Origin: Blastococcus litoris
Lineage (GTDB): Bacteria; Actinomycetota; Actinomycetes; Mycobacteriales; Geodermatophilaceae
DNA length: 64,000 nt
NCBI RefSeq assembly: GCF_003075095.1
Contig: NZ_QCZF01000004.1
Span: 310,001 to 374,000, forward strand
Reading direction: 5' to 3'
The translations under genes were made by a program, and so were the position numbers. The notes beneath the pieces were generated by a model. The model did not search any database. It saw only the letters and a program-made list of their open reading frames with translations, and was not told the DNA's origin. Shown here piece after piece: positions 24,526 through 40,386 of this stretch. Every line of letters begins with the position of its first letter. Position 1 is the stretch's first letter.

Positions 24526-24597
24526 GGGCGAGCCGCGACGTCGGCTCCCGGACGAGGGGTGCCGTACCCGGAGTGCGACAAGACGGCCCGGAGAGGT
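24521..24597 (+). promoter_or_regulatory. Candidate guanidine (ykkC-type) riboswitch before the Gdx gene
   Basis: The 77 nt before the exporter gene contain blocks resembling the guanidine-I aptamer: CCTGAGGG at the 5' side, a GAGCCG/CGGCTC hairpin, CCGGACGAGGGG, then GCGACAAGACGGCCCGGAGAGG near the 3' side (compare the consensus GGGACAAAAGCCCGGGAGA). The 3' block also contains the ribosome binding site, so ligand control of translation is conceivable. The match is by eye and imperfect; a plain GC-rich leader is the alternative. Confidence 0.4.
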
Positions 24598-24968: not shown

Positions 24969-27900
24969 GTGGAGGGCACCGGGCAGCTGCGGATCAGCCT
25001 GCTGGGCGCCTGCACGGCCTCGTCCGGGGGGACGCCGCTCGACCTCGGGGGACCGCGGCAGCGCGCGGTCCTGGTCGTCCTCCTCCTGGCCCGCGGCGAG
25101 GTCGTCCCCGTGGAACGGCTCACCGAGGCGGTGTGGGGGGACCACCCGCCGGCCGACGCCGCGGGGGCGCTGCAGGCCTACGTGTCGCACCTGCGCAAGC
25201 GGCTGCAGCCCGGCAGCGCCGCGCGGACCCGGTCCTCGATCATCGTCAGCGAGGGCCGGGGCTACGCGGTGCGGGTGCCACCCGACGCCGTCGACGTCTG
25301 GCGGTTCGAGCAGCTGCTGGACCGCTCGGGGACGGCGCCGGCCGCCGACACGGCCCGGCTCGTCGGCGAGGCGCTGGCCCTCTGGCGGGGTCCGCCGCTG
25401 GCGGAGTGGGCCGACGAGCCGTGGGCGGAGGCGGAGATCGCCCGCCTCGCGGAGCTGCGTGCCGTGGCCCGCGAGCGGCTGAGCGCCGCCCGCCTGGAGC
25501 TGGGCGAGGCCGCGCTGCTCGTACCCGACCTCGAGGCGATGGTCGCCGAGGAGCCGCTGCGCGAGGAGCGCTGGCGGCTGCTGGTGCTCGCGCTCTACCG
25601 GGCGAGCCGGCAGGCCGACGCCCTGGGCGCGCTCCGCCGCGCCCGCGCCACCCTGGCCGACGAGCTCGGCGTCGACCCGGGACCGGCGCTGCGCGAGCTG
25701 GAGGAGCAGGTGCTCGCCCAGTCGCCGGCGCTCGCCGTGCCCGCGCAGCGCACCCGTCCGCCCGAGCCGGCGCCCCCGGCGCCACCGCCCCCGGACGACC
25801 TGCTCGACCGGGAGCGGGAGGTGCGCGCCGTCCGGGGGGCCCTCGCCGACCTCGTGGCCGGGGAGCCGCGGCTGCTGCTCGTCGAGGGACCGGCCGGCAT
25901 CGGCAAGACCCGCCTCCTGACCGAGGCCCGCCGGATGGCGGCCGAGCGGTCGATCCGGGTCCTCACCGCCCGCGGCAGCCAGCTGGAGAAGGAGTTCGGG
26001 TTCGGCGCCGTGCGCCAGCTCTTCGAGCCGGAGCTGGCGACCGCCGAGCGCCGGGACGCCCTCCTGGCGGGCGCCGCGGCCAGCGCCCGGACCGTCTTCG
26101 ACCTCGCCCCCGGCGACGTCCAGGAGGGCTCGTTCGCCGTCCTGCACGGGCTGTACTGGCTGGCCGTCAACCTGAGCGCCGACGGTCCGCTCGTCCTCGC
26201 CGTCGACGACCTGCAGTGGTGCGACAGCGCGTCCCTGCGGTGGCTGGCCTACCTCGCCCGCCGGCTGGACGCCGTCCCGGTCCTGGTGGTCGCCACCGTC
26301 CGGACCGGCGAGCAGCACCCCGACGAGGAGCTGCTCGCCGAGCTCGCGCTCGAGCCGGCCGCCGTCGTGGTGCGCCCGGCCGCGCTCTCGGCCGAGGCGA
26401 CCGAGGAGCTCGTGGAGCGCCGTCTCGGCGGCCCGGTGTCGCCGCTGTTCGCCCTCGCCTGCCACCGCACCACCTCGGGCAACCCGCTGCTCCTGCGGCA
26501 GCTGCTGCGGGGGCTGGAGGCCGACGCCGTGCGACCCGACGCCGCGCACGCCGACGTCGTCGTCGGGGTCGGGTCGCGGGCGGTGTCGAGCATGGTCCTC
26601 ATGCGGCTGCGCCGGCTGCCGGGCCCGGCCGCCGACGTCGCCCGTGCGGCCGCGGTCCTGGGCGACGGCGCGTCCCTGCCGGCGGTGGCGGCCCTCGCCG
26701 GGCTGACCGAGGCGCAGACGGCGGCGGGGCTCGCCGCGCTGGCCCGCTGCGAGATCGTGAAGGACGAGCAGCCGATGGCGTTCGTCCACGCGCTGGTGCG
26801 CGACGCCGTGTACCGGGACCTGCCGGCGGCGGAGCGCGCCCTGCGGCACGAACGCGCGGCCGGGCTGCTGCAGGCGGCGGGGGCCAGCGCCGAGCAGGTG
26901 GCCGCCCACCTGCTGCTGGCCCCGGCGCGCGGCGACCCCGCGACGGTGGAGACGCTGCGCCGGGCCGCCCGCACGGCCGCCGACCGCGGCGCCTCCGACA
27001 GCGCCGTCACGCTGCTCCGGCGGGCCCTGGCCGAGCTTCCGGCCGGCGAGCTGCGCGCCGACGTGCTCACCGAGCTCGGCATGCTCGAGACGCGCGTCGA
27101 CGGCGCCGCGAGCACCGAGCACCTGCTCGCCGCCTACGAGCTGGACGGCGACCCGCGGGCCCGGGCCACCATCGCCGTCGCGATTGCCCGCACCGAGGTG
27201 TTCGCCAGCCCGCCCGGAGCGGCCACGGACTTCGCGCGGGCGGCTGCCCGCGTCCTGCCCGCCGAGCTGACCGACCACCGCCAGGCCCTGGTGGCGATCG
27301 AGCGGATCGGCGGTTACCTGCACGGGCTCGAACCCGGGAGGTGGGCGACCGCCGACCCGGGGGTGCCGGCCGGCGAGGGGCTCGGCGCCCGGATGCTGGC
27401 CGCCACGCTCGCCTTCGAGGCGACGGTGGAGGGTGCCGACCGGGAGCGCGCAGTCAGGCTCGCGCGGTTCGCCCTGGACGGCGACCGGCTCTGGGCGGTG
27501 GACGACGGCCTGTTCTGGGCGGTGGCGGCGCAGGTCCGCATGCTGGCCGACGACGACCTCGGCGACTTCTGGGCGCGGGCGCGGGTCCGGGCGCACGCCC
27601 GCGGCTCGCTGTTCATGGCACTCACCGTCAGCGTGTGGGAGGGCTACTGGCGCTGGCGCCGCGGGGAGCTCGACGAGGCGCTCGCCTGCCTCACCGCGGC
27701 GCTGGACCAGGACCGGATGTGGCGCGGGTCCCGCATCGGCGAGCCGTACACCCGCTCGATGCAGATCGGCTGCCACCTCGACCGGGGCGACGTCGCCGCC
27801 GCCCGCCAGGTGGCTGACGCGGCGGTCGCCGGGCCGACGGCGGGGGAGGGTGGGCGGCTGCTGGAGCACGCGGTCGCCCGGCTGCTCGCCGTGGAGGGCC

Positions 27901-28568
27901 GGCCCGCCGAGGCACTGGCCCGGCTGGACGCCATCGACATGCCGGTGCCGGTCCGCAACCCCGTGTGGAACCCGTGGCTGACCACCGCGGCGATCGCCCT
28001 CGACCGCCTGGGCCGCCGCGGCGAGGCGGTGTCGCTGATGGAGGAGGAGGTCGCCCGGCTGCGCCGGTGGGGTGCCCCCAGCTACCTCGGGACGGCGCTG
28101 TGCCGCCTGGGCGAGCTGCGGGGCGACGACGGCATCGAGGACGTGCGCGAGGCGGTCGAGGTGCTGACGCCGACGTGGGCCGCGGTCGAGCTGGCGCGGG
28201 CGCGCTGCGTCCTGGGTGGCCGCCCCGAGGTGCCCGACGACGAGGCCGTCGGGCTGCTGCGGGCAGCGCTGGACACCGCGCTCGACCGCGGCGCCCTGGG
28301 CATCCGGAAGCGAGCCGTGGCGGCGCTGGCCCGGCGCGGCCACCCCGACGTGAGCGGGCGGGACGCACAGCGGTGCCCGACGTCCACCGAGCGCCGCATC
28401 GTGGCGCTCGCCGCCGCGGGCGCCGGCGTCCGCGACGTCGCGCAGCAGCTGTTCCTGACACCGGGCACGGTGCAGTCGGTCCTGGAGGCGGCCGCCGCGA
28501 GCGGTCTCAAGTTCTCCTCAAGTCCGGCGCCCGATGCTCGGTCACCGGCAACCGGGAGGATCCCGTGA
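24969..28568 (+). CDS. Large SARP/BTAD-type transcriptional regulator with AAA ATPase and LuxR-like C-terminus
   Basis: A 1199-aa multidomain regulator. Residues about 1-95 form an OmpR-type winged helix DNA-binding domain (LGGPRQRAVLVVLLLARGEVV), and about 100-245 a bacterial transcriptional activation (BTAD) domain. An AAA/STAND-type ATPase follows, with Walker A VEGPAGIGKTRLL near residue 303 and Walker B LAVDDLQWCD near 410, then a long helical TPR-like region. The C-terminal 60 residues (STERRIVALAAAGAGVRDVAQQLFL) resemble a degenerate LuxR helix-turn-helix. Such proteins sense an unknown signal and activate nearby genes. Its stop overlaps the first FAD oxidase gene (GTGA), and TCAAG repeats before both oxidases are candidate binding sites. 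GTG start with GAGGGAGG before it; a -10-like TAGCTT is at 24945-24950. Confidence 0.88.
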   Translation: MEGTGQLRISLLGACTASSGGTPLDLGGPRQRAVLVVLLLARGEVVPVERLTEAVWGDHPPADAAGALQAYVSHLRKRLQPGSAARTRSSIIVSEGRGYAVRVPPDAVDVWRFEQLLDRSGTAPAADTARLVGEALALWRGPPLAEWADEPWAEAEIARLAELRAVARERLSAARLELGEAALLVPDLEAMVAEEPLREERWRLLVLALYRASRQADALGALRRARATLADELGVDPGPALRELEEQVLAQSPALAVPAQRTRPPEPAPPAPPPPDDLLDREREVRAVRGALADLVAGEPRLLLVEGPAGIGKTRLLTEARRMAAERSIRVLTARGSQLEKEFGFGAVRQLFEPELATAERRDALLAGAAASARTVFDLAPGDVQEGSFAVLHGLYWLAVNLSADGPLVLAVDDLQWCDSASLRWLAYLARRLDAVPVLVVATVRTGEQHPDEELLAELALEPAAVVVRPAALSAEATEELVERRLGGPVSPLFALACHRTTSGNPLLLRQLLRGLEADAVRPDAAHADVVVGVGSRAVSSMVLMRLRRLPGPAADVARAAAVLGDGASLPAVAALAGLTEAQTAAGLAALARCEIVKDEQPMAFVHALVRDAVYRDLPAAERALRHERAAGLLQAAGASAEQVAAHLLLAPARGDPATVETLRRAARTAADRGASDSAVTLLRRALAELPAGELRADVLTELGMLETRVDGAASTEHLLAAYELDGDPRARATIAVAIARTEVFASPPGAATDFARAAARVLPAELTDHRQALVAIERIGGYLHGLEPGRWATADPGVPAGEGLGARMLAATLAFEATVEGADRERAVRLARFALDGDRLWAVDDGLFWAVAAQVRMLADDDLGDFWARARVRAHARGSLFMALTVSVWEGYWRWRRGELDEALACLTAALDQDRMWRGSRIGEPYTRSMQIGCHLDRGDVAAARQVADAAVAGPTAGEGGRLLEHAVARLLAVEGRPAEALARLDAIDMPVPVRNPVWNPWLTTAAIALDRLGRRGEAVSLMEEEVARLRRWGAPSYLGTALCRLGELRGDDGIEDVREAVEVLTPTWAAVELARARCVLGGRPEVPDDEAVGLLRAALDTALDRGALGIRKRAVAALARRGHPDVSGRDAQRCPTSTERRIVALAAAGAGVRDVAQQLFLTPGTVQSVLEAAAASGLKFSSSPAPDARSPATGRIP
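28506..28522. repeat. Paired CTCAAG direct repeats (candidate SARP box) before the first FAD oxidase
   Basis: CTCAAG occurs at 28506 and 28517, an 11-bp period (one helix turn). SARP regulators bind such direct repeats. A weak -10-like GATGCT starts 10 bp after the second repeat (28533), and the oxidase GTG follows at 28565. The repeats lie within the last codons of the regulator gene itself. Confidence 0.5.
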
Positions 28569-33031: not shown

Positions 33032-33997
33032 CTACAGCGTGAAGACGATCTTCCCGGCGGTGCGGCCCTCGAGCATCCGCTCGAACCCGTCGCGCGCCTG
33101 GCCGAGGGGCAGCTCGACGTCGATCTCGGGGCGGATGCCGGTGACGCTGCACAGCTGGATCAGCGACTCGAGCTCGGACCTGGTGCCCATCGTCGAGCCG
33201 ATGACCGACAGCTGGGTGAAGAAGATCCGGTTGAGCTCCGCGCCGGGGTTGAAGCCGGTGGTGGCACCGGAGGTGACGATCACGCCGCCGGGCTTGAGCG
33301 ACTTGACGCTGTGCGACCAGGTGGCCTCGCCGACGGTCTCCATGACGCCGTCCACCCGCTCGGGCAGGCGCGCGCCGGACTCGAACGCCTGGTCGGCGCC
33401 CAGCGCCAGGGCGGCGGCCCGCTTCTCCTCGCTGCGGCCGGTCACCCAGATCCGGTAGCCGGCGGCCCGCCCCAGGACGATGAGCGCCGTCGCCACGCCG
33501 CCGCTGGCGCCCTGCACCAGGACAGTCTGGCCCGGCCGCAGGCCCGACCGGACGAACAGCATCCGGTAGGCGGTCAGCCAGGCCGTGGGAAGGCAGGCGG
33601 CCTCGGCGAAGGACAGGTCGGCGGGCTTGGGCAGCAGGTTGCGCCTCGGGACGGCGACCCGCTCGGCCAGCGTGCCCTGGTGGACCTCCGAGAGCAGCGA
33701 CCGCTTCGGGTCCAGCGTCTCGTCGCCGCGCCAGTCGGGGCTGGAGATGACCGCGTGGACGACGACCTCGTTGCCGTCCTCGTCGATGCCGGCGGCGTCG
33801 CACCCGAGGATCATCGGCATCTTCTCGGCCGGCAGACCGACCCCGCGCAGGCTGAACAGGTCGTGGTGGTTGAGCGACGCGGCCTTGACCTCGATCGTCG
33901 TCCAGCCGTCGGGCGCCTCGGGCTCGGGCCGGTCGCCCACCTCCAGGACGGACAGCGGGTCCTTCGGGGCGGGGGTCGAGACGAAGGCGGCGAGCAT
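33032..33997 (-). CDS. Zinc-independent medium-chain dehydrogenase/quinone oxidoreductase family protein
   Basis: A 321-aa MDR-superfamily oxidoreductase. An N-terminal GroES-like domain (SLNHHDLFSLRGVGLPAEKMPMILGCDAAG) is followed by a Rossmann NADPH-binding domain (VLVQGASGGVATALIVLG near residue 160) and the C-terminal ELPLGQARDGFERMLEGRTAGKIVF. It keeps a conserved N-H-D core but lacks the clear structural-zinc Cys cluster, placing it with quinone oxidoreductases. Substrate unknown. It ends in TAG, which matters because this genome carries a UAG-reading tRNA-Sec. Confidence 0.88.
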   Translation of the reverse strand: MLAAFVSTPAPKDPLSVLEVGDRPEPEAPDGWTTIEVKAASLNHHDLFSLRGVGLPAEKMPMILGCDAAGIDEDGNEVVVHAVISSPDWRGDETLDPKRSLLSEVHQGTLAERVAVPRRNLLPKPADLSFAEAACLPTAWLTAYRMLFVRSGLRPGQTVLVQGASGGVATALIVLGRAAGYRIWVTGRSEEKRAAALALGADQAFESGARLPERVDGVMETVGEATWSHSVKSLKPGGVIVTSGATTGFNPGAELNRIFFTQLSVIGSTMGTRSELESLIQLCSVTGIRPEIDVELPLGQARDGFERMLEGRTAGKIVFTL

Positions 33998-34090: not shown

Positions 34091-34954
34091 ATGTCGCAGC
34101 CCACGCCGGTGGTCGACGAGGCCAACGCCGAGCAGTTTCGCGCCTGGAACGGGGACGACGCGCAGGACTGGGTGAGCAACGCCGACCGCTACGAGGCGGC
34201 CAGCGCCCGCTACGACCCGTGGCTCCTCGACGCCGCGGCGATCGGTGCCACCGACCGCGTGCTCGACGTCGGCTGCGGCGCGGGCGTCTCGACCCGGGCG
34301 GCGGCGCGGCTGGCGGTCGACGGCCACGCCACCGGCCTCGACCTGTCGGCACCCCTGCTCGCCGAGGCCCGCCGGCGCACCGCGGCGGCCGGCCTGCGCA
34401 ACGTCGACTTCTTCCAGGGCGACGCCCAGGTGCACCCGTTCGAGCCCGCCGGCCGCGACGTGGCGATCAGCCGGTTCGGCGTCATGTTCTTCGCCGACCC
34501 CGTCGCCGCCTTCACCAACATCGCGTCGGCGCTGCGGCCGGGCGGCCGGCTGGCCGCCGTGGTGTGGCAGGAGTTCGCCCGCAACGAGTGGCTGCGCCTG
34601 CTGGTCGAGACGCTGGCCACCGGACGGGACCTGCCGCGGCCGGCGCCGGGCGCCCCCGGCCCGTTCGGGCTGGCCGACCCCGACGCCGTCCGCCGGATCC
34701 TGACCGCGGCGGGGTTCAGCGACGTCGATCTGGCCGACGTCCGGGAGCCGGTGCTGCTCGGCAGCGGACCCGACGACGCGTACGCCTACGTCAGCTCTCT
34801 CGGACCGGTCCGGGCCCTGGTGCGCGGTCTCGCGGAGGACGCTCGCGCCGGGGTGCTGGCCGAACTGCGGGTGCGGCTGTCCGAGCGCGCGGGCCCGGAC
34901 GGCGTGCTGCTCGGCGCCGCCGCCTGGGTGGTGACGGCGGTCAGCGGACGATGA
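34091..34954 (+). CDS. Class I SAM-dependent methyltransferase
   Basis: A 287-aa methyltransferase of the UbiE/Methyltransf_11 type. Motif I is VLDVGCGAGVST near residue 57, followed by the acidic GLDLS and a motif with FFQGDAQVHPF; the post-motif region ISRFGVMFFADPVAAF is typical. Substrate unknown. The ATG at 34091 follows GACGAT by 7 nt. Its last 14 bases overlap the 3' end of selD on the opposite strand. Nothing ties it to selenium metabolism except position. Confidence 0.88.
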   Translation: MSQPTPVVDEANAEQFRAWNGDDAQDWVSNADRYEAASARYDPWLLDAAAIGATDRVLDVGCGAGVSTRAAARLAVDGHATGLDLSAPLLAEARRRTAAAGLRNVDFFQGDAQVHPFEPAGRDVAISRFGVMFFADPVAAFTNIASALRPGGRLAAVVWQEFARNEWLRLLVETLATGRDLPRPAPGAPGPFGLADPDAVRRILTAAGFSDVDLADVREPVLLGSGPDDAYAYVSSLGPVRALVRGLAEDARAGVLAELRVRLSERAGPDGVLLGAAAWVVTAVSGR

Positions 34955-35948
34955 GCACGTGCTCCCGCCGGGGCACGAACTCGCCGATCACCGGGGCGCC
35001 GGGGACCTCCCCGCCCAGCAGCAGGCCGCCGGAGGTCTGCGCGTCGGCCAGCAGCAGCGCGTCGTCCTCGGTGGCCGCCGACAGGTCGGTGTGCGGTCGC
35101 ACCCAGTCGAGGTTGCGCCGGGTGCCCCCGGAGACGTACCCGTCGGCCAGCGCCTCGCGGGCCCCGGCCAGGTACGGGACGGCTGCCGCGTCGACCACGG
35201 CGGTCACGCCGCTGGCCCGCGCCATCTTGTAGAGGTGCCCCAGCAGGCCGAAGCCCGTGACGTCGGTGCCCGCACGGATGCCCGCGGCGACGGCGGCCCG
35301 GCCGGCGTCCCGGTTGAGCGCGGTCATCGAGGCGACGGCCTCCTCGGAGACCTCGCCCGTCGCCTTCATGCGGCTGTTGAGGACGCCGACGCCGAGCGGC
35401 TTGGTCAGCGACAGCGGCGTCCCTGCCTGCGCGGCGTCGTTGCGGATGATCCGGTCGAGGTCGACCAGCCCGGTGACCGCCATGCCGTACTTGGGCTCGG
35501 GGTCGTCGATGGAGTGCCCTCCGCCGACGTGGCAGCCGGCCTCCTGCGCCACCTCCAGCCCGCCGCGCAGCACCTCGGCCGCGAGCTCCGCGGGCAGCAC
35601 GTCACGCGGCCAGCCCAGCAGGTTGACCGCCACGACGGGGGTGCCACCCATCGCGTAGACGTCGGACAGCGCGTTGGCCGCCGCGATCCGGCCGAAGCTG
35701 TACGCGTCGTCGACGACCGGGGTGAAGAAGTCGGTGGTGAGCACCAGCCCCTGGCCGCCCGCGAGGCGGACCACGGCGGCGTCGTCGCCGTCGTCCAGGC
35801 CGACCACGAGCTCGGCGTTCGGCGACCCCGGACCGGTACCGGTCAGGCCGGCGACGACCGACTCCAGCTCGCCGGGCGGGATCTTGCAGGCGCAACCGCC
35901 GCCGTGGGCGAACTGGGTGAGCCGGACGCGGGCGGGTGCGGTGGTCAC
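34941..35948 (-). CDS. selD: Selenide, water dikinase (selenophosphate synthetase)
   Basis: SelD makes monoselenophosphate, the selenium donor for SelA, from selenide and ATP. The 335-aa protein has the N-terminal redox motif GGGCACK (about residues 16-22; the catalytic position is cysteine, not selenocysteine), LTTDFFTPVVDDAYSFGRIAAANALSDVYAMGG (ATP/Mg site), and the C-terminal HGGG..DVTGFGLLGH pattern. It starts with GTG. It lies on the opposite strand about 1.2 kb from the tRNA-Sec-selA-selB cluster, with two small regulatory-type genes between them. No SelU gene (selenouridine route) is present, so Sec incorporation is the evident use of its product. Confidence 0.95.
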   Translation of the reverse strand: MTTAPARVRLTQFAHGGGCACKIPPGELESVVAGLTGTGPGSPNAELVVGLDDGDDAAVVRLAGGQGLVLTTDFFTPVVDDAYSFGRIAAANALSDVYAMGGTPVVAVNLLGWPRDVLPAELAAEVLRGGLEVAQEAGCHVGGGHSIDDPEPKYGMAVTGLVDLDRIIRNDAAQAGTPLSLTKPLGVGVLNSRMKATGEVSEEAVASMTALNRDAGRAAVAAGIRAGTDVTGFGLLGHLYKMARASGVTAVVDAAAVPYLAGAREALADGYVSGGTRRNLDWVRPHTDLSAATEDDALLLADAQTSGGLLLGGEVPGAPVIGEFVPRREHVLIVR

Positions 35949-37181: not shown

Positions 37182-37277
37182 GGAGGCGTCAGGGTGTCTG
37201 GTGACCCCCGCGGCCTCTAAAGCCGACGTGGCCGAGCAGCTCGGTCAGGCGGGTTCGATTCCCGTCCGCCTCCGCCA
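37182..37277 (+). tRNA. selC: tRNA-Sec with CUA anticodon (reads UAG)
   Basis: This 96-nt gene folds as a selenocysteine tRNA. The ends GGAGGCG and CGCCTCC pair (7 bp), followed by discriminator G and an encoded CCA. The D-arm has an extended stem around loop TGGT (GTC/GAC plus GGG/CCC with one T-C mismatch). The long variable arm has 7 bp with a 3-nt loop (GGCCGAG-CAG-CTCGGTC), and the T-arm TTCGATT loop sits on a 6-bp stem, giving 13 bp across acceptor plus T stems as required for SelB. The anticodon loop is CTCTAAA on a CGGC/GCCG stem, so positions 34-36 are C-T-A (37217-37219). Canonical tRNA-Sec has CTTCAAA (anticodon TCA). It lies 29 bp upstream of selA on the same strand. Confidence 0.93.
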
Positions 37278-37306: not shown

Positions 37307-38611
37307 ATGAGCGCCGACATCCGCAGGCAGGTGCCCCGCACGGACGCGCTGCTCGCCGACCCGCGGCTCGCCGCGGCCGGCGAGCGGCTCGGTCGCGGGC
37401 TGGTCAAGGGGGCCGTCCAGCAGGTCCAGCAGCGGATCCGGGAGGGGGAGGTCGCCCCACCGGAGGCGGTCGACGCGGTCCTGGCCTCGCTCCCGGGGAC
37501 GGCGAGCAGCCTGCGACCGGTCCTCAACGCGACCGGTGTCCTCGTGCACACCAACCTGGGCCGCTCGCCCCTGTCGGATGCGGCGGTGGAGGCCATCACC
37601 GCGGCGGCCGGCACGACCGACGTGGAGCTCGACCTGGCCACCGGCCGTCGCGGCCCCCGGGGCGAGGCGGCGATCGCGGCGCTGCTGGATGCCGTCCCCG
37701 CCGCCGAGGCCGCGATCGTGGTCAACAACTGCGCCGCCGCGCTCGCGCTGGTCGCCACCGCCCTCGGTCAGGGCCGGGAGCTGGTGCTCGCCCGTGGTGA
37801 GCTGGTCGAGATCGGCGACGGCTTCCGGATCCCCGAGCTGCTGACCTCCACCGGCGCCCGCCTCCGCGAGGTCGGGACCACCAACCGCGTGACGCTCGCC
37901 GACTACCGCGGCGCCCTGGGACCGCAGACCGGCGCCGTCCTCAAGGTCCACCCGTCCAACTTCGTCGTCCGGGGCTTCACCCGGCAGGTCGAGGTGGGCG
38001 AGCTGGCGGCGGCGCTGGAGGACGTCCCGCTGGTCGCCGACATCGGGTCCGGTCTCCTGCGCCCGCACCCGCTGCTGCCCGACGAGCCCGACCTGCAGAG
38101 CACGCTGGCCGCCGGCGCCGACCTGGTGCTGGCCAGCGGCGACAAGCTGCTCGGCGGTCCGCAGGCCGGGCTGGTGCTCGGCCGGGCAGAGCTCGTCCAG
38201 CGGCTGCGCCGGCACCCCCTCTACCGGGCGCTCCGCGTCGACAAGACGACCCTCGCCGCGCTCGAGGCGACGCTCCGCGGTCCGCTCCCGCCGGTCCAGG
38301 AGATGCTCGCCGCGGACGTCGACGGCCTGCGGGCCCGTGCCGCGGCCCTCGCCGCTCGCTTCACGGGGGCGGGGATCGACGCCGCCGTCGTCGATGCCGA
38401 GGCGCGGGTCGGCGGGGGAGGTGCGCCGGAGCACCCGCTGCCGAGCATCGCCGTCTCCCTCCCCGTGTCCTTCGCCGACCGGCTGCGGCTGGGCTCGCCG
38501 CCGGTGGTCGGCTACGTCGAGGACGACCGCACCCTGCTGGACCTGCGCAGCCTGCCGCCGTCCGCGGACGACGACCTGGCCGCGGCCGTGCTGGCGGTCG
38601 CCACGCGATGA
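37307..38611 (+). CDS. selA: L-seryl-tRNA(Sec) selenium transferase
   Basis: SelA converts Ser-tRNA-Sec to Sec-tRNA-Sec using selenophosphate. The 434-aa PLP enzyme has the family patterns NATGVLVHTNLGRSPLS, NNCAAALALV, RGELVEIGDGFRIPELL and KVHPSNFVVRGF. The PLP-binding lysine is in SGDKLLGGPQAG (Lys280), and DKTTLAALEATL follows. The N-terminal helical domain that binds the D-arm of tRNA-Sec is present. It lies between the tRNA and selB and overlaps selB by four bases (ATGA). All components for bacterial Sec synthesis (selA, tRNA-Sec, selD) are therefore in this window. Confidence 0.96.
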   Translation: MSADIRRQVPRTDALLADPRLAAAGERLGRGLVKGAVQQVQQRIREGEVAPPEAVDAVLASLPGTASSLRPVLNATGVLVHTNLGRSPLSDAAVEAITAAAGTTDVELDLATGRRGPRGEAAIAALLDAVPAAEAAIVVNNCAAALALVATALGQGRELVLARGELVEIGDGFRIPELLTSTGARLREVGTTNRVTLADYRGALGPQTGAVLKVHPSNFVVRGFTRQVEVGELAAALEDVPLVADIGSGLLRPHPLLPDEPDLQSTLAAGADLVLASGDKLLGGPQAGLVLGRAELVQRLRRHPLYRALRVDKTTLAALEATLRGPLPPVQEMLAADVDGLRARAAALAARFTGAGIDAAVVDAEARVGGGGAPEHPLPSIAVSLPVSFADRLRLGSPPVVGYVEDDRTLLDLRSLPPSADDDLAAAVLAVATR

Positions 38612-40386
38612 CCGAGGTGCTCCACCCGGACGTCAACCACATGGACGTCGTCGCGACGGCCGGGCACGTCGACCACGGGAAGTCGGCGCTGGTCCGCGCT
38701 CTGACCGGCATGGAGCCCGACCGCTGGGTCGAGGAGCGGCGGCGCGGCCTGACCATCGACCTCGGCTTCGCGTGGACGACGCTGCGCTCGGGCCGCCGGG
38801 TCGCGGTCGTCGACGTGCCCGGGCACGAGAAGTTCGTCGGCAACATGCTGGCCGGGGTCGGCTCCGTGCCGGCCGCGCTGCTGGTCGTGGCCGCCGACGA
38901 CGGCTGGTCGGCGCAGACCGCCGAGCACGTGGCCGTGCTCGACGCGCTCGGGGTGCGGCACGCGCTGCTCGCCGTCACGAAGTGCGACCTCGCCGACCCC
39001 GAGCCGGTCATCGCCGACGTCCGGGAGCGGCTGGCGGGCACGTCGATGGGTGAGGTGCCGGCCGTCGCGGTCAGCGCCCTGACGGGTGCGGGCGTCGTCG
39101 AGCTGGGCGGCGCTCTGGAGGACCTGCTCGCCGGGCTGCCGCCGGCCGACGCGACCGCACCCGTGCGGCTGTGGATCGACCGCGCCTTCACGATCCGGGG
39201 CGCCGGCACCGTCGTCACCGGGACCCTGGCCGCGGGCAGCGTCACGGCCGGCGACCGGTTCCTGCTCGGCGACCGCGAGGTCGTCGTGCGCCGGGTGCAG
39301 TCGCTGGGAGCGCCGGTCGAGCGGGCCTCGGCCACGGCACGGGTCGCGCTCAACCTCCGCGGGGTCGCGGTGGAGGAGCTGTCGCGCGGCGACGCCCTGC
39401 TGACCCCGGGCGCCTTCCGCCTGACCGACCTCGTGGACGTGACCCTGACCGGGGCGCCCGAGGAGCGGCTGCCCGCCGAGCCGGTGGTCCACGTCGGGTC
39501 CGCGACGGTCGGTGCCCGCCTGCGCCTTCTGGACGGGCCGGCGCTGCGGCTGCGGCTGGCCTCGGCGCTGCCGCTTCGGATCGGCGACCGGCTGCTGCTG
39601 CGTGATCCCGGCTCACGCCGGGTGCTCGGCGCCGACGTCCGGGACGTCGACCCGCCGGACCTGCGCCGCCGCGGTGCGGCCCGCCAGCGGGCGGCCGAGC
39701 TCGCCGAGCAGCCGGACGGCGCGGCGGGCGCGGCCGCCGACCTCGCGCGCCGGCGCCTCGTCCGGGCCGACGACTTCGCCGCCATGGGCTGGCCGGTGCC
39801 GGCCGGTGCAACCGTCCACGGTCCGTGGCTGATGGCGGCGGGACTGGCCGACGACCTCGCGACGCGGCTGCCCGACGTCGTGGCCCGCTACCGGAGGCTG
39901 CGGCCGCTGGAGGCGGGGCCGCCGGTGGAGGTGGTCCGCCAGGCGCTCGAGCTGCCGGACGCCGACCTCGTGCCGGCCGTGGTGCGGCCGCCGCTGGCAC
40001 TGCGCGACGGCCGCGTGGTCGACGGCTCGGCGGAACTGCCGCCCGACGTGCAGGTGGCGGTCGACGGCATCCTGCGGCGCCTCGCCGACGACCCGTTCGC
40101 CGCACCGGAGGCGCCGGACCTGGTCGCCGCGGGTCTGGGGACGCGGGAGCTCGCGGCCGCGGTGCGGAGCGGGCAGCTGGTCCGGATCGGCGAGGGCGTC
40201 TACCTGGCGCCGGGCATCGCCGACGAGGCCCGTCGGCGGCTGCGGGCCATCGCGCAGCCGTTCACCCTGAGCGAGGCGCGGCAGGCGTGGGGCACCAGCC
40301 GCCGGGTCGCCGTCCCGCTGGCCGAGTGGCTCGACGCGCAGGGCGTGACAGTCCGGCTGCCGGACAACACCCGCCGGCTGCGCTGA
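38608..40386 (+). CDS. selB: Selenocysteine-specific elongation factor
   Basis: SelB carries Sec-tRNA-Sec to the ribosome at a Sec codon by binding a SECIS hairpin in the mRNA. The 592-aa protein has G1 GHVDHGKS (residues 19-26), the RRRGLTIDLGFAW switch, G3 DVPGHEKFVGNML (about 69) and G4 TKCDL. EF-Tu-like domains 2-3 follow, then a C-terminal set of winged helices (about 370-592) that bind SECIS. The ATG at 38608 overlaps the selA stop; a later ATG (38641) is a weaker alternative. Because its tRNA partner has a CUA anticodon, this factor should decode UAG. No unusual insertion was noticed. Confidence 0.95.
   Translation: MTEVLHPDVNHMDVVATAGHVDHGKSALVRALTGMEPDRWVEERRRGLTIDLGFAWTTLRSGRRVAVVDVPGHEKFVGNMLAGVGSVPAALLVVAADDGWSAQTAEHVAVLDALGVRHALLAVTKCDLADPEPVIADVRERLAGTSMGEVPAVAVSALTGAGVVELGGALEDLLAGLPPADATAPVRLWIDRAFTIRGAGTVVTGTLAAGSVTAGDRFLLGDREVVVRRVQSLGAPVERASATARVALNLRGVAVEELSRGDALLTPGAFRLTDLVDVTLTGAPEERLPAEPVVHVGSATVGARLRLLDGPALRLRLASALPLRIGDRLLLRDPGSRRVLGADVRDVDPPDLRRRGAARQRAAELAEQPDGAAGAAADLARRRLVRADDFAAMGWPVPAGATVHGPWLMAAGLADDLATRLPDVVARYRRLRPLEAGPPVEVVRQALELPDADLVPAVVRPPLALRDGRVVDGSAELPPDVQVAVDGILRRLADDPFAAPEAPDLVAAGLGTRELAAAVRSGQLVRIGEGVYLAPGIADEARRRLRAIAQPFTLSEARQAWGTSRRVAVPLAEWLDAQGVTVRLPDNTRRLR

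Follow-up and report, generated by a model that had tools for sequence, protein, structure and literature searches.

The window analysed here, a stretch of 64,000 nt from Blastococcus litoris, carries a tRNA gene for selenocysteine (Sec) together with the protein genes of a bacterial Sec system. The tRNA-Sec gene, selC, occupies positions 37182–37277 of the plus strand, with G73 and the CCA end encoded, as judged from ARAGORN, the Rfam model RF01852 and the sequence. After a gap of 29 bases follows selA (37307–38611, plus strand), encoding an L-seryl-tRNA(Sec) selenium transferase of 434 amino acids that scores 425.4 bits on TIGR00474 (cut-off 267.9). The first four bases of selB (38608–40386, plus strand) coincide with the last four of selA; the selB product, a Sec-specific elongation factor of 592 amino acids, scores 284.2 bits on TIGR00475 (cut-off 242.25) and has a C-terminal winged helix, matched by PF09107 (SelB-wing_3) at residues 548–588. 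selD, for a selenide, water dikinase of 335 amino acids (34941–35948, minus strand; 390.4 bits on TIGR00476, cut-off 125), lies 1.2 kb upstream of the tRNA gene on the opposite strand. SelA, SelB and SelD all exceed their NCBIfam cut-offs, in line with the Sec system that an earlier note on this DNA had described. Elsewhere in the window, a Guanidine-III riboswitch (RF01763, 62.9 bits, cut-off 36; 24527–24592, plus strand) sits upstream of an ORF of 1,199 amino acids (24969–28568).

The anticodon of the tRNA-Sec gene is CTA (RNA CUA; 37217–37219, plus strand), the anticodon for UAG, according to the sequence, ARAGORN and the RF01852 alignment. The RF01852 match spans the full model (37182–37273; 66.8 bits, cut-off 47; E value 2.1e-13, or 1.9e-11 when recomputed over the full window) and aligns the anticodon loop CTCTAAA (37215–37221) to the CUUCAAA of the model, with U33 and A37–A38 retained. 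With the loop so defined, the anticodon is CTA, and the alignment places no TCA at positions 34–36. The earlier note had described a tRNA-Sec-type gene ahead of selA and selB with anticodon CUA and with U33 and A37–A38 kept, and the sequence and both programs bear this out.

ARAGORN finds 37182–37277 to be the sole tRNA of the window (anticodon cta) and labels it tRNA-Pyl, as would suit a pyrrolysine tRNA or another amber suppressor, with UAG read generally as another amino acid. We regard this reading as extremely improbable. The match to RF01852 is full length, with selA and selB adjoining, and for closely similar TCA genes from other actinobacteria ARAGORN itself gives the label tRNA-SeC. 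tRNA-Sec is, moreover, the sole Rfam match with an E value of 0.1 or better at the locus, and the gene does not fit the structure of tRNA-Pyl. The variable arm of tRNA-Pyl consists of three nucleotides (PMC7609411). tRNA-Pyl shares with the present gene the anticodon CUA and the reading of UAG, but its tRNA family and amino-acid pathway differ from those of tRNA-Sec.

Across all 4.63 Mb of the genome (G000; 87 contigs, 99.96% complete), we found no second tRNA-Sec, either with RF01852 and ARAGORN or with a tRNA-Sec pattern, which matches once. The six other RF01852 matches, out of seven, are called tRNA-Ser (three), tRNA-Tyr, tRNA-Leu and tRNA-Met by ARAGORN, and one tRNA-Ser(tga) scores 49.7, slightly above the cut-off. 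No canonical tRNA-Sec(UCA) was found in this genome, so this check does not refute the UAG reading.

UAG also continues to serve as an ordinary stop codon. Among 38 ORFs of the window picked by codon bias, 36 end at TGA, two at TAG and none at TAA, which agrees, within the window, with the earlier statement that nearly all stops are UGA. One of the TAG stops (33032–33034, minus strand) ends a zinc-type dehydrogenase gene (33032–33997) identified by its ORF and domain ends: in the 321-residue product, PF13602 reaches residue 318 and TIGR02824 residue 320. Since this stop coincides with the end of the domain models, UAG is recoded in context only, not throughout; that ordinary genes still end at UAG argues further against a general amber suppressor.

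Two selenoprotein genes were found in the genome. Of five matches to the molybdopterin oxidoreductase family, one, a formate dehydrogenase (FDH), has a single in-frame TAG, located at G000:C1:200414 in the context NQARI-U-HSATVPGL; reading through the TAG gives a protein that reaches 1788 bits on NF041513 (formate_DH_Act), whose cut-off is 1400. For the UGSC family there is a single match, again with one TAG, lying in the motif U-G-S-C. Thus both genes carry TAG and not TGA at the Sec position, the point on which the earlier note had proposed to check its reading.

To place these genes among relatives, we used a SelA search that returned 80 named loci; ARAGORN detects a tRNA-Sec-type gene at 64 of these and none within the stretch at the other 16. 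The anticodon is CTA at 35 loci and TCA at 29. Of the CTA loci, 34 are named Blastococcus, Geodermatophilus, Modestobacter, Klenkia, Trujillonella, Goekera or Geodermatophilaceae, and one is named Bacillus sp. AZ43. This last record (L017, UNVERIFIED_ORG) groups with Blastococcus in a SelA tree, and its label looks wrong. The stem pair flanking the anticodon loop (37214/37222 of the window) is C-G in 35 of 35 CTA genes and T-A in 28 of 29 TCA genes. C-G is also seen in TCA genes from other parts of the order (at the least in G174, G259 and G468), so that this pair is not tied to the anticodon alone.

The Sec codon follows the anticodon in these relatives, the two agreeing wherever both were read. 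We searched for FDH in every CTA genome but that of AZ43 (34 of 35) and in 14 of the 29 with TCA. All 34 CTA genomes have an FDH with one TAG, and at least 8 of the 14 TCA outgroups have one with a single TGA, the other six having no stop-bearing FDH among the matches listed. Sec sites read directly (n = 41) comprise 37 with TAG, from the genome itself and all 34 CTA relatives, and four with TGA, from outgroups. Additional FDH copies occur at L244, L245 and L246 (genomes G024, G001 and G009) and also in G005 and G007, and all of them have TAG at this site. The UGSC family is present in 18 of 34 CTA genomes and in none of 14 outgroups; its 34 matches include 23 with TAG, 11 without a stop and none with TGA, and ten of the stop-less genes, when read, have TGC (nine) or TGT (one) at the Sec position.

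This conservation bears on the possibility that Sec still enters at UGA in the canonical way, with CTA a sequencing error or the relic of a decayed gene and the TAGs nonsense mutations. CTA recurs at all 34 SelA loci named for Geodermatophilaceae and in 101 of the 112 genomes of the family discussed below, and the TAG of the FDH site is found in 34 of 34 genomes, with an open frame before and after it and a covarying hairpin. The conservation of CTA and TAG refutes such an explanation, to which we assign next to no likelihood.

Downstream of the TAG, 58 sites (37 FDH and 21 UGSC, from the genome and its relatives; 27 distinct sequences) have a common SECIS geometry, in which 11 nt separate the UAG from a 7-bp stem with the loop RGUNU. 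FDH and UGSC differ in sequence at the hairpin and share this geometry. Among the 27 distinct sequences, seven stem positions pair in 21, six in two and five in four, so that 94.7% of 189 cells are paired, and six of the seven pairs have changed on both sides. Double-sided changes occur in 41 cells, as opposed to 8.3 in shuffles, over 27 sequences from two protein families, and part of this covariation is due to the contrast between FDH and UGSC. When the hairpin partners are slid out of register, pairing drops to 36–51%. Of five covariation measures, one is no higher than in shuffles, namely the count of additional pair types (9 versus 8.3; 220/500), and the folding energy of the UAG hairpin in single sequences is no better than that of shuffles (z = −0.64 and −0.49). 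TAGs at the Sec positions of FDH and UGSC, each with a hairpin after it, are also not what a general amber suppressor would lead one to expect.

We searched for further genes of this type with both the primary sequence and the structure of the hairpin. The pattern TAG-N16-SS-RGTNT-SS is not enriched in the genome, with 8 matches versus 10 in a reversed control; the full 7-bp stem is formed in two of the eight, which are FDH and UGSC. A covariance model (R1), built from the 27 FDH and UGSC sites and run over 35 genomes with 150 candidates scored per genome, gave 63 matches of at least 40.7 bits among those listed, the next scoring 28.2 bits. By place, 40 of these are in FDH, including three in further FDH copies, and 23 in UGSC. 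One known UGSC site with TAG (G009) scored 26.1 bits on R1. Seventeen weaker matches, read among those listed, included no convincing new selenoprotein; given the training of R1 on two families and the 150 candidates per genome, other selenoprotein families could be missed.

From these comparisons of sequence, we are highly confident that tRNA-Sec(CUA) inserts Sec at UAG codons that bear a SECIS hairpin, that other UAGs act as stops, and that this arrangement goes back to a single swap, most likely within the family, in which the tRNA and the genes changed together. In the proposed pathway, SerRS would charge tRNA-Sec(CUA) with serine, SelA would turn the serine into Sec using selenophosphate from SelD, and SelB would deliver the Sec-tRNA to ribosomes at a UAG followed by the SECIS hairpin. 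Sec would thereby be inserted in the formate dehydrogenase and the UGSC-family protein, and a UAG without a SECIS would still be a stop codon. The earlier note had inferred that UAG is read as Sec at SECIS-bearing sites, a view supported by the tRNA, by SelA, SelB and SelD, by the two TAG Sec sites and by the covarying hairpin. As a possible reason for the swap, the note had suggested that Sec at the rare UAG would compete less with termination in a genome rich in UGA stops.

A further possibility, on which the sequence itself is silent, is that the charged tRNA chiefly places serine or cysteine at UAG, yielding products that are not true selenoproteins. We consider this highly unlikely. The matches of SelA and SelD to their families are complete, and a conserved hairpin points to delivery by SelB, a factor selective for Sec-tRNA. 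The ten cysteine forms of UGSC, in addition, have TGC or TGT at the position in question.

The use of UAG for Sec is already known for Geodermatophilaceae, and the genome studied here is another member of this group. PMC5330540 describes three Geodermatophilaceae genomes with tRNA-Sec(CUA), credits the FDH and UGSC selenoproteins of the family to Mukai et al. 2016 and adds an AhpC selenoprotein with TAG for Blastococcus saxobsidens; PMC5133445 reports UAG for Sec in Blastococcus. The statement in the earlier note that UAG-directed Sec had been reported for the family and for Blastococcus was thus right. The published cases and the present one share the family, the CUA anticodon of tRNA-Sec and the FDH and UGSC genes with TAG for Sec. 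They differ in that B. saxobsidens is reported to have an AhpC gene with TAG (PMC5330540), whereas we found none in this genome, where 10 AhpC-TSA matches all lack a stop.

With the canonical bacterial Sec system (UCA/UGA, SelA/SelB/SelD and bSECIS), the present one has in common its genes, tRNA architecture, hairpin geometry and target enzyme; at four FDH sites read in outgroups of the canonical type, TGA is followed by a similar hairpin sequence. The difference lies in the codon and anticodon, UGA/UCA in the canonical system and UAG/CUA here. Anticodon variants of tRNA-Sec for UGU/UGC, UAA and other codons are described in PMC8124441 and PMC10778597. In these variants, as here, the change of anticodon is matched in the selenoprotein genes, and the codons are those for Cys, UAA or others, compared with UAG in the present case. 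With codon and anticodon in accord wherever both were read, the present system confirms that the Sec codon can move between stop codons while the new one still ends other genes. For annotation, the system calls for caution: ARAGORN names the tRNA a tRNA-Pyl, and under the standard code the FDH and UGSC genes break at TAG.

What the present analysis may add is the family-wide distribution of CTA and TCA, which narrows the origin of the swap, and a candidate strain with a dual code. A literature search confined to titles, abstract openings and passages of PMC5330540 and PMC5133445 turned up nothing on a strain with both tRNAs or on genera with UCA.

In the GTDB family Geodermatophilaceae, the tRNA-Sec pattern matched 108 of 112 genomes, the four without a match being incomplete. 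CTA is found in 101 of the 112 genomes and in 9 of 12 genera. TCA alone is found in seven genomes from three genera (g5: G114, G116 and G117; g6: G118; g7: G120–G122; loci L278–L284). The genomes of g5–g7 are fragmentary, at 2.4–3.7 Mb in 190–550 contigs, and are probably MAGs. The FDH Sec site is TGA in all five readable genomes of g6 and g7 (G118–G122), and none is readable in g5. The FDH of g6 and g7 belongs to a different subtype (NRT-U-HAPS) from that of the B. litoris genome, whose own subtype is found with TGA in four genomes (L301–L304), three from family f2 and the fourth from f3.

A SelA tree of 72 rows, covering neither the 16 loci that lack a tRNA nor g5, for which there was no SelA sequence, places the 36 CTA rows on one side of a 100/100 branch and so gives CTA a single origin on this tree. 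The g6 and g7 rows fall outside the CTA branch, together with a Pseudonocardiales MAG, and do not resolve as sister to the CTA rows. Judging from the GTDB grouping, the swap most likely arose inside Geodermatophilaceae after g5–g7 had branched off. The exchange of UGA/UCA for UAG/CUA would then have taken place once, at about this point, with the tRNA and the selenoprotein genes changing together. Because three UCA genera in the same GTDB family bracket the swap, the order of its steps is open to study.

Outside the family, CTA occurs in a single genome, G278, among the matches listed (397 genomes, 251 with a match). One contig of this genome, which is assigned to another family of the order (L276, G278:C194; 4,845 bases), has a CTA tRNA-Sec and a SelA piece 82% identical to that of the window, and another contig has a TCA tRNA-Sec and a SelA 63% identical to that of the window. 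Given this discrepancy, the CTA contig is probably a mis-binned Geodermatophilaceae contig. Two copies of tRNA-Sec(CTA) are present in each of the incomplete genomes G084 (C25, C168) and G143 (C376, C481), where mixing of bins is possible. One strict tRNA-Sec-like pattern, applied to viral contigs, found CTA in none and TCA in six.

One of the 101 CTA genomes, that of Geodermatophilus sp. LHW52908 (G106, also G008; listed by NCBI under G. marinus), has a second tRNA-Sec, with TCA. The strain keeps tRNA-Sec(CUA) beside selA and selB, and TAG in its FDH (L199) and UGSC (L142) genes. The tRNA-Sec(UCA) gene lies at 1263–1169, minus strand, of locus L274 (G106:C17:1-18000; RF01852, 81.8 bits) and, among the loci compared, is best matched by Amycolatopsis, at 84%. 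About 315 bases away and divergent from it is a peroxidase-related gene of CFYU type (L274, 1579–2157, plus strand), a frame of 192 residues whose single in-frame TGA stands at a cysteine position (..LNRCFY-U-MESH..). With Cys in place of Sec, a 174-residue piece scores 108.8 on TIGR01926 (peroxidase-related enzyme), above the cut-off of 81.8, and reaches 45.1 on NF041238, a model whose name bears the motif CFYU, far under its cut-off of 175. Past the TGA come 10 nt and then a 7-bp stem with a 3-nt loop, or by eye alternatively 6 bp with AGUUU; this spacing is unlike that of the UAG sites, and the energy of the hairpin is within that of shuffles (z = −0.11 and −1.24). We found no relative of the CFYU protein in viral contigs.

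The coexistence, in one genome, of FDH and UGSC genes with TAG and of a tRNA-Sec(UCA) beside a gene with TGA suggests that UAG and UGA are possibly both used for Sec. Whether LHW52908 regained UGA-Sec by horizontal transfer after the swap from UGA to UAG, and today uses two stop codons for Sec, is in our judgement an even call. In such a dual code, the one SelA/SelB set seen would serve both tRNAs, and the strain, if confirmed, would make it possible to test whether a single set serves two Sec codons.

The second tRNA looks foreign and lies in an island of low GC content (59–65% in the windows from 1 to 6 kb of L274, compared with 77% around selA), which is adjoined on contig C17 by transposase-type genes (IS110 and others), and it is possible that the island was joined to C17 by an assembly misjoin at the IS elements. 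Outside the island, C17 looks chromosomal from its gene content: all 26 genomes of the genus match a 4.5-kb stretch that includes a uroporphyrinogen decarboxylase gene, the best piece being 79–87% identical in the other 25 genomes, some of which match the stretch only partly, and a deoxyxylulose-phosphate synthase gene lies further along the contig. The transposase region also contains an ALIL pseudoknot (RF01497, 65.8 bits; L274:9125-9253, minus strand), a usual frameshift signal of IS elements. Finally, the plasmids NZ_CP110115.1 (L292, Arthrobacter, conjugative by typing) and NZ_LR134459.1 (L293, Tsukamurella) each carry tRNA-Sec(TCA), selA, selB, selD and fdh together, and the presence of such whole clusters on plasmids makes the transfer of parts of this kind plausible.
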